Assembly: GCF_030269925.1 (NCBI RefSeq) | Contig: NC_085121.1 | Span: 15,455,501-15,519,500 of the forward strand | DNA: 64,000 nt | Reading direction: 5' to 3' | From: Bombyx mori | Lineage: Eukaryota; Arthropoda; Insecta; Lepidoptera; Bombycidae | Part shown: positions 26,601-32,100 of the stretch, piece after piece | Layout: each line of letters begins with the position of its first letter | Numbering within the stretch: position 1 is the stretch's first letter | Position numbers and translations under genes: made by a program | The notes under the pieces: model-generated | Seen by the model: the letters and a program-made list of their open reading frames with translations, nothing else | What the model was told of the DNA's origin: nothing | Databases searched by the model: none

Positions 26601-29600
26601 ATTCTTAGATTTCTGTAACACAATACTATCGTATTGTTTAACTACGATCGCGATGGCCTTTTGCTTTGACATTTGAAGGGTATGTACATATTTTCAAGTA
26701 GCGTTGTTTGGCAAACTTTGAGCTAGTTAAATTGGTGGTTTAATTTTGAAAAATGTTATTAAGTAATAAACGATGTATGGATAGGATCATGGTCGTTTTG
26801 AAAAATGTTCAGCATATTCATATTCTTAAAGTCGTCATGGCCCAAAGGATAAGACGTCTGGTGCATTCGTATCTATGCAATTTATCGGTGTTCGAATCCC
26901 GCAGAGGTGTACCAATTTTTCTAATGAAATACGTACTTAGCAAATGTTCACGATTGATTTCCACGGTGAAGGAATAACATCGTGTAATAAAAATCAAACC
27001 CGAAAAATTCTAATTTGCGTAATTACTGGTGGTGGTAGGACATCTTGTGAGTCTGCACGGGTAGGTACCACCGCCCCGCCTATTTTTGCCGTGAAAGTAG
27101 TAATGCGTTTCGGTTTGAAGGATGGGGCAGCCGTTGTAACTATACTGAGACCTTAGAACTTATCTCAAAGTGGGTGGCGCATTTACGTTGTAGATGTCTA
27201 TGGGTTCCAGTAACCTGGTGGGTGGGCTTGAGCTCGTCCACCCATCTAAGCAATAAATAAATAAATAAAAAGATGGAAAGGTGGAAAACAACGACTATCT
27301 CGAATGTAGCACAATGTTAAATCATATCACTCCTTTTCTCGTTCAAATATTATCTCTTGATTTTATTTACCAAAAATGCTGTTAAACTTGAACATTTCAG
27401 CACACCTCGTTAAATAAGGTTTTTATAAGCGTAAAGATATTACAAAACTTCAACTTCAAGGTTGTGCGGTTTTGTTCATTTTTTGGAACGTGAATCGTAT
27501 TCGTAGGTAATGTATTACGAATTAATGCAATTCTATTGCAAAAATAACTTAATTAAACGAGAGCACGCTGTATGCCTTATTGCCAATTTGTTGTATATTT
27601 CGAGGGGTGAAAGGCTATTTGGTTTAAGCGACATCTAGGGTGATATTGAGTTATATACATATACGGAATCAGCGAATTTTTCTCCGTCGAATGATGCCGG
27701 ATTTATTAAAATCAGAGCACTTTTTTGGCGTTTGAAACAATACTATTTTTGGGTTGTTTCCAAAGTGGCAGTGTATTATCCAACGTTGATTTTGAATATT
27801 TTTTTTAGTAATGTACTTAAACCATACAATGATATTAAGAGACGAGACATAAACCAGTTACCTTTTCTCAGAAAAAGAATCCAATAAGAGTTAAAGCGTG
27901 TTTCCTGTTTCAATTTTTTATTAAGCAGTAACTTAAATCATTTTGACTTCTACCAATTACATGGTGTGATGTCTCTTAAACCATTTGTCCGTCACCCAAA
28001 TACAACATGGAGTGTCGCTTAAGCTCTTTCAGCTGCATCTATTTTCCATGCAGGGTGCTACTTAAATCAAGTAGTTCTTTTGTTTCAGATATTTTGCTTA
28101 GCCGTTAAAACATTTTGGTCCTATTATTTTATTAAATGCATGTCGCTTAATACAGACAATAAAATGAAGTAATGCAATATGAAACATTTTTTCGGTATAA
28201 ATAAAAATACGGGTCGGTCTTTCAATCATTAAATTTTAATATGATACATTTCATTCATGTCGCATGATACCATATTTATTTCATCTCCCGGGAGTTAAAA
28301 ATCGTGATCTTTCAACCGGACTGCCGCGCGCAGGCGCTTCAGTCGAACTCCAGAGTGCATCGAGGAGTGACGTGAAGAAATATGAAACCGAATCCTTGCT
28401 TAGAAAAAAACTGTCCCTACAAGTGTCAAGAAATAACCTCAGAAAAAAGGAGTGCCATATTTAAACATTTTTGGGAATTATCTCCGGAAAGAAAAAAGCA
28501 GTGGATAATATCTATGTCCTCTAAGCAATCCATAAAAAGGAAGAGATCCAAAGACTCTAATTACAGGAATAACACATTCTGTTATTTCATAAATGATGGA
28601 GAGGGTCGGCGACAAGTTTGTTTAAAGTTACTCATGAATACTCTTGATGTCACTCAAAGATACATTTATTATACATTAACAACACAGGAACTTGGTATGG
28701 CGAAAGAAAATGGAAGAGGAAAATGCATTCCCCCCAACAAAACATCTAACGCAATCAAAGAATCAGTAAAATCTTTTATCAAAAGGTTACCTGCAATACC
28801 ATTGCACTACTGCCGAAAGGATAGCACAAAACTATATCTGCCTGTTGAATTTAAAAATATAAAAAATTTATACCGCTGTTATAAAGAAGACCTCATTAGT
28901 AAAGGAGTCGATGTTGTAAGTGAAAAAGTAATCCGTCAAATATTCACTACTGATTTTAACATTGGGTTTCATGTGTCTAAGAAGGATAAATGCATAAAAT
29001 GCCTACGTTTTGAAGGACAGAAGCCAGAGGATTGTGCCGAATTTCAAGATCATTTAGAGGAAAAGAAGGCATCAAAGAAGCGGTTAGAATGTCATCGACA
29101 GTTAGGTAAAGAAAATCCTTCCATTCTGTGCACATCTTTTGACCTCCAGAAAGTTCTCAATACGCCTCATGGCAATAACATGTTACTATTTTATTCTAGA
29201 AAGTATGCTGTTTATAATTTATGTTTTTATGAAAGCATCACAAGGAACGGTTTTTGTTTTATCTGGGGAGAATCTGAAGCAAAGAGGGGCGCAAATGAAA
29301 TTGCTACTATTATACAGAAATACATAGAGAATGTGGATTCTCGAGGTATCATTACATCTTTGATCTTGTATTCAGATTCTTGCCCTGGACAAAACAAAAA
29401 TAAAATAGTCCTTGCAACAATACATAATGCTTTGTTGCAATCGAACAATTTACAAGCAATTCAAATGAATTACCTTCTCCCTGGCCACACGGAAATGTCG
29501 GTAGACAGCATACACTCTACAATCGAACAATCCGTAAGAAATATTACAGTATGGGCCCCTTCGCAATGGGCTACAATAAGCCAGCTAGCAAGAAAAGAAC

Positions 29601-32100
29601 CAGCACCTTATAATGTTGAAAATCTGACACACGAGGATTTCTTAAATTTTGATGATATGTCAGAAAAATATTTTAAGGGTAACCTTGTAGGTAAAATTAG
29701 TAAAATCCGTACAGCAACATTTAAAAAATCTCATCCAAATCAAATGAAAGTAAAATTTTCAATGAAAGATAATGCATCCGAAGAGATTATACAAATTATT
29801 GCGAAACCTAGAGCTATCAATCGTAGATATAATTCAAGTTTGCCGATTACCAAAGCCAAATACATGGACCTAAAGAAATTGTGTGACACTGGGGTTATAC
29901 CCAAGATATTTCATAAAGAATACATAAATCTACAACACTGCAATTCCAAAGATGTTCTACTGGATACTGATGTAGAAGATACAGTCGAAGAAAATGATTT
30001 TTAAATACGTTCTTTCTTATTGCATTATGATTATTATCAAGCATTGGCTGTATTTTATAATTACTACAAGTTTTGTTTATTGATTTGATATTTTTTATTT
30101 TGTTTTTATTAGTTTCAGTTATAATTAAACAATATTGGTTGTGATTAATTATAGTCTTAGTAAGTTTTATGACAGCCGATCTCAAGTAATATTGAATAAA
30201 TAATACCTAATTATAGTTGATTTTCCTACATTCAGACTGAATTTACTTGATTAATATCACATCAGTAAAAGTAATAATACTTTATAATGTACAAAATACT
30301 AATACGTATTAATACTTTAACTGATGTGATAATAATCAAGTAAAATCAGTCTGAATGTAGGAAAATCATGTATAATGAATTAATTATAGTTGATTTTCCT
30401 ACACTCAGATTGATTTTACTTGATTATTATACGAAATATGAATACTTTAACTGATGTTGTTAATTATTATACAAAATATTAATAGTTTAACTGATGTTGT
30501 TGATTAAGACTAAAAAATAAATAAATATAATTGATGTTCCCACATTGAGACTGTTCTACTTAATTATTTTTCTAAATAAATACTTTAACTGTTGTTGTGT
30601 TTTGTGTATTTCTTTATTTATTCAATAATATAAGCACCTGAGATTTTCAGTGATTGCGATATATTTAGGTTGTTTTAACAGCCACTGATAGTATTAGACG
30701 TAAAAAAATGTAACATCAAACGGTAAATTTTCAATATTATATGTCACATAAGTAAATTCGCCTGTCAGTCATTTTAATCTAAATTGGTAGTTGAGATAAA
30801 TAGCTTGCTACTATTAATTTTGGGCTAAGTCACTTCATGCTTTTTGGCTTACTCTGAAAATATATTGCAGCGTCGCTTATTTTTTTTCCCTGTAGCCAAT
30901 TGTGGTTATGAAGTCACTTAAATCTTTATTCCATACTCTGAAAAATAAGGGCTTAAGGCAATTTGTATTAAGCGACGTTTATCTTTGTAATTAAAGGTCC
31001 GTTTTATTCGGTATTAGCATCAACAACTTGATGTTTTTAATTGAATTTCAATTAAGTTTACTCCATTCAAATTGCTGAAGAAGTTTTTTTGTTATGATTT
31101 TTTTTCCAAAATTTTAAACTTTAAATGGCTCTCCTGTAAAGTTGCAAAAATGTCGCTTAAACCAAATAGCCTTTCACCCCTCGATTTAATGTTTAATCTA
31201 ACATTTACGGCTAATGCAGTTTTTTTTAAAAGTTTAAATCAGAAAACGAAGTTACGTGTATGTTGATTAAATTTCACAGAGAGACCATCGCGCTTGTTAA
31301 TTACTCAGTTTATTTAATTATTACGTGCGTAACGTGCAGAGCGTTATCGAGTTTATAACTGCAGTATTAATGGCCTATGCACTCGTAAACATCAAGGTGA
31401 ACACCTTACACAAGAGAACTACGAACAGAAATAGACACGAAGATTGTATTCAGAGTGTACTTCTATCATGAGTTGGTGTCATCAGATTGTTGTAGCGAAT
31501 TTAATAAGAATGCAGTCACAAGAAGGCCTTTTTTTTATTGCTTAGTTGGGTGGACGTAATCACAGTCCACATGGTGTTAAATGGTTACTGGAGCCCATAG
31601 ACATCTACAATGTTAATGCGCCACCCACCTTGAGATATAAGTTTTAAGGTCTCAAGTATAGTTAGTTATAAAGGCTACCCCACCCTTCAAACCGAAACGC
31701 ATTACTACTTCACGGCTGAAAATAGGCGGGGTGGTGGTACCTACCCGCGCGGACTCACAAGAGGACCTACCACCAGTAATTACGCAAATTATGATTTTGC
31801 GGGTCTGATTTTTATTACACGATGTTATTCCTTCACTGTAGAAGTCAATCGTATTTGTCAAGTACGTATTTCATTAGAAAAATTGGTACCCGCCTAGGCG
31901 CCTGCGGGATTCGAACATCGCTCAAGACAAATGCACCGGACGTCTTATCCTTTAGGCCACGAGACGACCTAAAATGATAAACTCCATAAATTTAAATTGT
32001 AATTTCAGATCCCGACAATCCACAGGCGGGCGCATCGACGACGGATCTGGACGTTAAGAAAGCAGACGAACAGACCGCTAAAAAGGACAGCTGCAGTTGA
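11636..32100 (+). CDS. cAMP-dependent protein kinase inhibitor (PKI)
   Basis: Three coding exons, 11636-11702, 20149-20322 and 32009-32100. All are joined in phase 1 with GT/AG borders, giving 333 nt and 110 aa. PKI proteins bind the PKA catalytic subunit as a pseudosubstrate and export it from the nucleus. Exon 2 carries EFLETGRTGRRNAMPDIL (41-58): Phe42, the Arg cluster 47/50/51 and Ala53 in place of a phosphorylatable Ser match the known inhibitor motif. LPSRLQQLV (70-78) has the spacing of a leucine-type nuclear export signal, in the position seen in vertebrate PKI. Exon 3 gives a hydrophilic tail ending KKDSCS. Exon 1 encodes a basic N-terminus (SKRKRGQHVKSR). Its phase fits, but translation could instead start at the ATGs near 20157 in exon 2. 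Vertebrate PKIs are about 76 aa. The introns are 8.4 and 11.7 kb and full of transposons. Confidence 0.85.
12537..12572. repeat. 12-bp perfect hairpin in PKI intron 1
   Basis: Bases 12537-12548 (aaggcaggaaac) are the exact reverse complement of 12561-12572, with a 12-base loop. The stem is too short for a standard microRNA precursor. Confidence 0.5.
13335..13632 (+). repeat. LINE 3'-end-like repeat with A-rich tail
   Basis: A GC-rich block in AT-rich surroundings, running from gccatctaggcgaac to ggcggaagtccggcgatttc and ending cctgacaataaaaaa. The composition and A-rich tail suggest the 3' end of a 5'-truncated LINE. No ORF was found. Confidence 0.5.
13920..14335 (+). repeat. Dispersed repeat, uninterrupted diverged copy
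   Basis: Same family as 9205-9470 plus 10345-10520: ccctagcaagaacagtgatt, gagaaactcagtgggttgta and then ggaggatccgacaagacatg. It has more mutations than the left copy and no transposon insert. Confidence 0.7.
14560..14692 (+). repeat. Short LINE/SINE tail family, copy A
   Basis: The unit ggcagcggcttggctctgcc, then gacggtaaccactgaccatc and ggtgggccgtatgctcgtct, ending in an A-rich tail. The first 17-18 bases are tandemly duplicated here. Other copies are at 20006, 47463 and 60310. Confidence 0.7.
15060..15270 (+). pseudogene. LINE ORF2 fragment
   Basis: The open stretch from 15068 contains TTRDRNRWRKIVREK followed by YGHNPQ, the kind of Asp-Arg-x-x-Trp-Arg motif found near the C-terminus of non-LTR retrotransposon reverse transcriptases. 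The rest of the element is not recognisable, and downstream translation to about 15517 shows no known domain. It is in PKI intron 1. Confidence 0.5.
15550..16850. other. PKI intron 1, unassigned stretch
   Basis: AT-rich sequence. Short open frames such as 16042-16320 show no family resemblance. No repeat or RNA gene was recognised. Confidence 0.3.
16855..17153 (+). repeat. Dispersed non-autonomous repeat
   Basis: It begins near gaccgagctttgctcg and ends near gctcgtttaaaggtataaga. The interior has ttttatgaaaatcgttggag and gagattcagattacatata, a pattern I associate with short RTE-like or similar non-autonomous repeats in moths. Confidence 0.5.
17690..17995 (-). repeat. Dispersed repeat, reverse copy
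   Basis: The reverse complement reads ggtccgttttcaccaggaca, ggcgagtacaggctcagcc, then ggatgggatttgctaacagc, cgaacgcctccgaatgagac and gatccggcgagaaactcagc. It gives the uninterrupted order of blocks that are split by an insertion at 59046. Confidence 0.7.
18401..18732. mobile_element. TIR element with AACCGACTTCAAA ends
   Basis: The left end aaaaaccgacttcaaa and the right end tttgaagtcggttaaaaa are inverted copies about 330 bp apart. There is no ORF. It is a non-autonomous DNA element in PKI intron 1. Confidence 0.65.
18868..18972 (-). repeat. Bm1-type SINE, head only, diverged
   Basis: The reverse strand contains the tRNA-like head (gtcgtcgtggcctaaa) and the gttcgaatc box-B-like string, followed by ccaatttttcctaat. 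The body is missing. Confidence 0.6.
19255..20005. other. PKI intron 1, distal part
   Basis: AT-rich sequence with no recognisable gene or RNA. A short ATT run occurs at 19255-19273. Confidence 0.3.
20006..20118 (+). repeat. Short LINE/SINE tail family, copy B
   Basis: The unit ggtaggcagcggcttggctc to gtatgctcgtctgccta ends in an A-run at 20107-20116. It lies only about 30 bp upstream of the PKI exon 2 acceptor. Confidence 0.75.
20365..20452 (+). repeat. Dispersed repeat fragment
   Basis: Shares gcccggaggcctttccagtttcaac-like and acaggtgggcgagcaaa blocks with 58965-59045 and, in reverse, 17920-17990. It starts 43 bp after PKI exon 2. A TG microsatellite (20341-20356) separates them. Confidence 0.6.
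20478..20870 (+). repeat. Non-autonomous retroelement-like repeat
   Basis: The head actagcttttgcccgcgact and the tail ttatatattagtagggat match a widespread insect repeat type with a cccgcgacttcgtccgcg head and a tatatattagta tail. No ORF. Confidence 0.6.
21707..21926 (+). repeat. Non-autonomous retroelement-like repeat
   Basis: From tagcgacccgccctcgcttc to tataatattagtatagaa, with aatcggtccagtagtttcgg in the tail and a short caaa run. Same general type as 20478-20870. Confidence 0.6.
21927..22774. other. PKI intron 2, unassigned stretch
   Basis: AT-rich sequence; no gene, RNA or repeat was recognised. Confidence 0.3.
22775..23027 (-). mobile_element. Bm1-type SINE, 5'-truncated
   Basis: Reverse orientation: the A-rich 3' end is at the left (tttttattgctta), followed by agcccatagacatctacaac, gtctcagtatagttacaacg, aaaccgaaacgcattactgc and the caccaccagt junction. 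The tRNA-like head is absent. Confidence 0.85.
23028..24845. other. PKI intron 2, unassigned stretch
   Basis: No recognisable gene. Two overlapping minus-strand open frames (about 23751-24069) could be a decayed transposon fragment, but no domain was identified. Confidence 0.3.
24846..24983 (-). mobile_element. Bm1-type SINE, short fragment
   Basis: Contains acatctacaacgtaaatgca, ggtctcagtatagttacaac and accgaaacgcattactgctt. Both ends are truncated. Confidence 0.8.
25555..26215 (+). pseudogene. LINE reverse transcriptase C-terminus, frameshifted
   Basis: One frame (from 25609) reads KVADFIYLGSQIISEDSG and GMAKSAMASRR. The frame then shifts near 25800-25850 to one reading MVRALVFSIFLYVAETW and DAFEMWVWRRMFRIPW. 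A further shift gives traces like PARWSDLVKKVDGGN near 26120. These are the usual end-of-reverse-transcriptase motifs of insect non-LTR elements. At least two frameshifts and missing N-terminal domains make it a dead, 5'-truncated copy in PKI intron 2. Confidence 0.8.
26216..26830. other. PKI intron 2, unassigned stretch
   Basis: AT-rich sequence without recognisable features. Confidence 0.3.
26831..27272 (+). mobile_element. Bm1-type SINE, full length
   Basis: The tRNA-like head gtcgtcatggcccaaaggat has A-box-like and gttcgaatccc B-box-like strings. It is followed by the body (attgatttccacggtgaagg, accaccgccccgcctatttt, ctgagaccttagaacttatc) and a tail caataaataaataaat. The length of about 440 bp is typical of the full-length copies here. 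Confidence 0.9.
28382..30004 (+). CDS. Transposase-like protein (DUF7869-type) of the 34-bp TIR element
   Basis: 540 aa, uninterrupted. The N-terminal Cys cluster (C6, C11, C15) precedes KRSAIFKHFW and FKLL-type helices (VCLKLLMNTLDV, 79-90). A second Cys/His group, KCIKCLRF (203-210) with C218, H224 and C237/H238, may bind zinc. The catalytic-like region has FDLQKVLNTP (253-262, Asp254), FYSRKYAVYNL (270-280), IWGESEAKRGANEI (294-307), YSDSCPGQNKN (330-340, Asp332) and GHTEMSVDSIHSTIE (368-382, Asp375, Glu382). The pattern is known from arthropod proteins with the DUF7869 domain, thought to be RNase-H-like. Taking Asp254, Asp332 and Asp375 or Glu382 as the catalytic set is inference. The ATG at 28382 follows an in-frame stop 6-8 bases upstream, so an additional spliced N-terminal exon cannot be excluded. 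It is not part of PKI. Confidence 0.85.
   Translation: MKPNPCLEKNCPYKCQEITSEKRSAIFKHFWELSPERKKQWIISMSSKQSIKRKRSKDSNYRNNTFCYFINDGEGRRQVCLKLLMNTLDVTQRYIYYTLTTQELGMAKENGRGKCIPPNKTSNAIKESVKSFIKRLPAIPLHYCRKDSTKLYLPVEFKNIKNLYRCYKEDLISKGVDVVSEKVIRQIFTTDFNIGFHVSKKDKCIKCLRFEGQKPEDCAEFQDHLEEKKASKKRLECHRQLGKENPSILCTSFDLQKVLNTPHGNNMLLFYSRKYAVYNLCFYESITRNGFCFIWGESEAKRGANEIATIIQKYIENVDSRGIITSLILYSDSCPGQNKNKIVLATIHNALLQSNNLQAIQMNYLLPGHTEMSVDSIHSTIEQSVRNITVWAPSQWATISQLARKEPAPYNVENLTHEDFLNFDDMSEKYFKGNLVGKISKIRTATFKKSHPNQMKVKFSMKDNASEEIIQIIAKPRAINRRYNSSLPITKAKYMDLKKLCDTGVIPKIFHKEYINLQHCNSKDVLLDTDVEDTVEENDF
30217..30368. repeat. Long palindrome inside the transposon
   Basis: The left arm gattttcctacattcagact at about 30218 is matched by its reverse complement ending at 30368 (agtctgaatgtaggaaaatc). 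Pairing continues inward through acttgatta and atcacatcagt. The loop is near 30285-30300. Degenerate direct copies of the left arm follow at 30391-30500. Confidence 0.75.
31529..31969 (-). mobile_element. Bm1-type SINE, full length
   Basis: Reverse orientation, from the A-rich end (ttttttattgcttag) to the head (the reverse of gtctcgtggcctaaaggata). It lies about 40 bp upstream of the PKI exon 3 acceptor. Confidence 0.9.

Follow-up and report, generated by a model that had tools for sequence, protein, structure and literature searches.

At window positions 27601-31183, within the 64,000-nucleotide stretch of Bombyx mori contig NC_085121.1 analyzed here (15,455,501 to 15,519,500; the window), lies an element that is almost certainly a transposon. 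It contains a single open reading frame (ORF) of more than 100 amino acids, which encodes a 540-residue protein with a DUF7869 domain, and is bounded by terminal inverted repeats (TIRs) whose arms are complementary at 34 of 34 positions, or over 35 nucleotides if the outer T/A is included. ATTT directly abuts the element on both outer sides. The perfect 34-bp TIRs, the ATTT flanks and the uninterrupted DUF7869-like ORF had all been read by a first-pass annotation of the same DNA and are borne out here. The principal features are as follows.

27601..31183, + strand: whole transposon copy of 3583 bp, family A (TIR pair I7; ends matched by 15 other two-ended copies)
27597..27600, no strand: left target-site duplication ATTT (4-bp duplication in 16/16 copies; empty sites of two other copies)
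31184..31187, no strand: right target-site duplication ATTT (same basis as the left one)
27601..27634, + strand: 5' TIR, CGAGGGGTGAAAGGCTATTTGGTTTAAGCGACAT (TIR comparison; 22-bp genome count)
31150..31183, - strand: 3' TIR (TIR comparison)
28382..30004, + strand: 540-amino acid ORF, probable N-terminally truncated DUF7869 transposase (ORF list, Pfam match, copy comparison)
29252..29761, + strand: match to PF25273 (DUF7869), residues 291-460 (46.5 bits, gathering cut-off 26)

Copies, target-site duplications and age of family A

The genome searched has 30 contigs totalling 461.7 Mb. A query consisting of the first 600 bases of the element gave 45 matches from the 40 candidates scored out of 268, and 16 of the matches span all 600 bases at 97-100%. 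The 16 copies (the window copy, L009-L017, L018+L059 and L019-L023) are distributed over 13 contigs and range from 2892 to 5452 bp; the termini originally proposed for the window copy recur in all 16 of these two-ended copies, each of which is flanked by an exact 4-bp duplication (ATAT in 11, ATTT in three and ACAT in two). The L013 site is located within an AT repeat, so that the length of its duplication is ambiguous, and five regions (L024-L028) lacking the second end or an exact duplication were left out of the count. The common ends and exact duplications of 16 copies on 13 contigs argue that the element is not a chance arrangement. The uninterrupted ORF as such would be compatible with a host or domesticated DUF7869 gene that came to lie between inverted repeats by chance, but this explanation can practically be disregarded given the 16 copies at differing sites with duplications, the empty sites of two copies and a frame that falls short of 540 codons in 12 of the 15 copies inspected for it.

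The first-pass annotation had named either ATTT or TCGA as the duplication. Because CG...CG is constant at the element ends, whereas the outer 4 bp differ among copies and agree within each copy, the duplication is ATTT and not TCGA. Empty sites were sought by comparing 16 joined flanks with the retrieved loci. Only one of the 16, that of L023, has a match across its junction, at 379 of 380 bases in L070, a copy of a different transposon family on a different contig, with a single ATAT. The joined flanks of L020 match across the junction at 97-98% in 40 of 40 scored places (183 candidates); 39 of these matches cover the full 180 bases, and the three that were read each have one ATAT. These paralogous empty sites, which pertain to L023 and L020 and not to the window copy, support, at the sequence level, a 4-bp duplication and ends of the form CG...CG, and are consistent with insertion of the family as initially suggested.

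With the variable stretch listed below excluded and L018 omitted from the comparison, 13 of 15 copies differ from the consensus by only 0.29-0.83%, so that family A, judged from sequence divergence, is young; the transposon looks recently active. The remaining values are 1.39% for L023 and 9.41% for L022, the latter inflated because long-form sequence was forced to align with the ORF. The terminal 22 bp, counted as single ends irrespective of pairing and with at most two mismatches, is found 1347 times in the genome (682 forward and 665 reverse), and its reversed control 0 times. Three short non-autonomous copies were read (248, 258 and 254 bp), two with exact ATAT and one with ATAT/ATAC.

30195..30600, no strand: length-variable stretch 3' of the ORF with local direct and inverted repeats (D1-D3, I3, I5; repeat search)

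The arrangement of this repeat stretch varies among family A copies. Outside the transposon, an interspersed repeat of high copy number lies on either side in two oppositely oriented copies (26835-27261 and 31530-31962), and more pieces of it are scattered across the window. The repeat contains TTCGAATCCCGC (pair I12), which we take to be a tRNA-type B box-like sequence, and because of this resemblance it may be a short interspersed nuclear element.

The long copy and the internal deletion

The description of the window copy as apparently intact has to be abandoned. The sister copy L018+L059 (5452 bp), whose ends agree with those of the window copy and whose duplication is ATAT, contains an extra 1747 bp between window bases 28375 and 28376. 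Its last ORF, of 698 codons, runs in frame into the 540-residue protein, which implies that the first Met of the window ORF is internal. Upstream of this Met, the extension can be aligned with four further DUF7869 proteins encoded in the genome, and all five sequences share a K...G..Y motif that was not seen in the DUF7869 protein L053 or in the bacterial DUF7869 proteins.

28375..28376, + strand: junction of the internal deletion, 1747 bp of L018+L059 absent (copy comparison)
28338..28345, + strand: TTCAGTCG, putative initiator-like promoter element (position; the ORF ATG is the next ATG downstream)

Of the 15 copies compared, 12, including the window copy, have the deletion junction (in L019 it is shifted by 5 nt), and L017, L022 and L023 lack it. 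Remnants of the extra region comprise 508 bases at 97.7% in L022 and 30 bases in L023, with none in L017, and the diverged relic L025 has several pieces at 74-87%. Because L022, L023 and L025 retain such pieces, the 1747-bp region appears to be ancestral and later lost, and the window copy is, with high confidence from these comparisons, an N-terminally truncated derivative. The opposite polarity, whereby the window copy is the complete autonomous element and L018 carries an insertion, could draw on the position of the ORF ATG shortly after a plausible start site, on the prevalence of the short form and on the restricted occurrence of K...G..Y; however, the in-frame extension of the ORF by the extra bases, its alignment with the four other proteins and the remnants in three further loci make it very improbable.

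As deduced from sequence, the gene of the long copy would have a leader exon at its 5' end, followed by a coding exon that opens with METERQ and by another of at most 698 codons. The deletion would have fused the leader to the mid-coding region, with loss of the N-terminal extension and of the exon predicted to begin the coding sequence; the 540-residue ORF left behind would retain the entire predicted catalytic core. TCAGT within TTCAGTCG resembles an arthropod initiator, and since the first ATG past it opens the 540-residue ORF, the deleted form may still be expressed. This form may have spread because a long copy moved it in trans, or through the shorter protein that it encodes itself.

The DUF7869 protein and its relatives

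The four acidic residues singled out by the first-pass annotation are found where it placed them, Asp254 in FDLQ, Asp332 in SDSCPGQNKN, and Asp375 and Glu382 in GHTEMSVDSIHSTIE.

29141..29143, + strand: codon of Asp254, putative first catalytic residue (model strand 248-255; D in 16 of 17 aligned rows, the remaining row being a gapped fragment)
29375..29377, + strand: codon of Asp332, putative second catalytic residue (end of model strand 326-332; D in 17/17 rows)
29504..29506, + strand: codon of Asp375, putative third catalytic residue (model helix 373-384; D in 17/17 rows)

Only one member of the Asp375/Glu382 pair holds as a candidate for the third position: all 10 bacterial rows have K or R at the site of Glu382 and D at 375, and this rules out Glu382. 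The alignment and the structural model thus point to a D254-D332-D375 triad. The predicted structure of the ORF has an RNase-H-like core, in agreement with the fold anticipated earlier. The element as a whole suggests that DUF7869 functions as a DDD transposase with an RNase-H fold. In the profile-library searches, no named family except PF25273 scored above any cut-off, and no Sola2 sequence or named Sola2 profile was among the matches; PHROGs, which has no cut-offs, yielded only E-values of 0.2 and 0.28. No transposase was among the PDB sequence matches of the ORF.

The PF25273 profile matches 113 places in the Bombyx mori genome, including family A, all above the cut-off, and none across 14 control genomes. 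Two other families have defined ends. Family B ends in CGACGGCAAAAAGCAAACC (3' end read in nine copies, both ends in three), and the three two-ended copies have exact duplications (ATAC, ATAT and ATAT), with one site within an AT repeat. In family C, the ends are about 35 nucleotides long and begin CTAGGGTC, and the open frame comprises 667 codons; exact duplications flank 12 of its 13 two-ended copies (AATT in eight, ATTT in two, AAAT and ATAT in one each, the last readable as TATA with a one-base shift). Two family C copies on different contigs, L073 (C5) and L074 (C11), are identical at 2881 of 2881 bases, and the latest movement of this family therefore looks more recent than that of family A. 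We also observe that L034, L035 and L036, all on contig C29, agree with one another at 99.97% or more across their full 3471 bases, inside the ORF and outside it; these loci may represent a segmental duplication.

A profile built from seven proteins of the Bombyx mori genome retrieved 10 bacterial DUF7869 loci, in Desulfocicer, Thiomargarita, Legionellales and others. In seven of the 10, TIRs of 39-61 nt at 87-100% surround the DUF7869 ORF; L068 has a weak 20-nt TIR pair at 80%, L060 begins at a contig end, and no TIR was seen around the ORF of L067. Three of the seven loci with clear TIRs have exact 4-bp duplications (L061 AAAT, L063 AATT and L066 ATTT), and the other four have ANNT flanks mismatched at one or two positions, L065 alternatively showing an exact 5-bp TATGA if the end is moved 4 bp outward. 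The end of this Thiomargarita locus (L065:1538-1579, GGGGGCGTGAAAGGCAAAAGGGGGTTTAAGG) resembles the end of the window element (GGGGTGAAAGGC...GGTTTAAG). In each of the six bacterial genomes searched there is a single copy, so that multi-copy mobility lacks support in bacteria. In a tree of 17 proteins (eight from Bombyx mori and nine bacterial), the two groups are split across one branch (100/99), a pattern without any hint of recent transfer; L053 forms a long branch.

Placement and comparison with known systems

Sola elements reportedly have DDD transposases and occur in bacteria. Duplications of 4 bp are considered consistent with Sola2 in the relevant passages of a survey whose Sola2-type elements have AWWT in Dictyostelium fasciculatum and ATAT, AAAT and ATTT in Polysphondylium pallidum (PMC3627910). 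The duplications described here are of the same AT-rich type, with 14 AWWT and two ACAT in family A, 12 AWWT among the 12 exact ones of family C, and one ATAC among the three of family B. The TIRs match at 34 of 34 bp, and the triad is complete in every row that reaches all three positions (D254 in 16 of 16), within a predicted fold. Because the 4-bp AT-rich duplication and the DDD triad fit Sola2, this group is the best placement, and family A probably belongs to it as judged from duplication, TIR and DDD features rather than from protein comparison. The first-pass annotation had offered Sola or a new group; the former fits and the latter is not needed.

The duplications do not fit several other known groups. 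The Tc1/mariner duplication is 2-bp TA, whereas here 16 of 16 duplications are 4 bp long and the empty sites of two copies have a single 4-bp ATAT. The piggyBac and Sola3 duplication is TTAA, and the same sequence is given for Kolobok in a published excerpt; TTAA is not found among the 16 duplications of family A, the three of family B or the 12 exact ones of family C.

DUF7869 transposons might instead form a superfamily apart from Sola2, present in bacteria and animals, with a coincidental 4-bp AT-rich duplication. This would agree with PF25273 being the sole named match, with TIR-bearing bacterial relatives on one side of the branch and the Bombyx mori rows on the other, and with the absence of any paper on DUF7869 from the literature searched, but the DDD core and bacterial presence reported for Sola and the AWWT duplications printed for Sola2-type elements, in the passages cited above, render it unlikely. 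Less probable again is the more specific variant in which DUF7869 is a transposase superfamily of its own with bacterial insertion sequence relatives and the 540-residue form, its promoter leader joined to the catalytic half, is a short transposase, functional or regulatory, that has spread more widely than its parent. The overall reading to which we assign a probability of roughly three in four is a cut-and-paste family, most likely Sola2, in which DUF7869 is an RNase-H-fold DDD transposase and the window copy is internally deleted. Under this cut-and-paste reading, the transposase would bind the 34-bp TIRs, excise the element at the terminal C/G and insert it into an AT-rich target (ATAT, ATTT or ACAT) cut with a 4-bp stagger, the repair of which would yield the 4-bp duplication.

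For a domain of unknown function, the likely role that emerges is that of a DDD transposase whose elements have defined ends and target duplications, as checked in three families of one genome and partially supported by the bacterial relatives. If this is correct, other DUF7869 proteins, which the first-pass annotation describes as common in arthropods, would be transposon genes and not host genes. The identical family C copies L073 and L074 provide a practical entry for testing present-day activity.

Compared with known systems, the elements share with Sola2 the 4-bp AT-rich duplications, the TIRs and, reportedly, the DDD transposase, and differ in that some duplications are ACAT or ATAC. The Sola2-type amoebozoan elements, in the published passages describing them, have TIRs of 12-21 bp, as opposed to 34 bp here, and no captured Fanzor1 gene is apparent in the window element, with its single ORF of more than 100 amino acids. 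Tc1/mariner elements such as Mos1 and SETMAR are set apart by the TA dinucleotide. The bacterial DUF7869 loci are similar in the domain itself (seven of seven proteins scanned), the conserved DNC.GQNKN and GHT....D motifs, the TIRs and the ANNT-type flanks, and dissimilar in being single-copy, in the lower share of exact duplications and in having K/R where the Bombyx mori rows have E382. Finally, the window ORF scores above the curated cut-off of PF25273, the Pfam description of which gives no function, and in the present analysis this domain goes together with TIRs and target duplications and has a model that is RNase-H-like.
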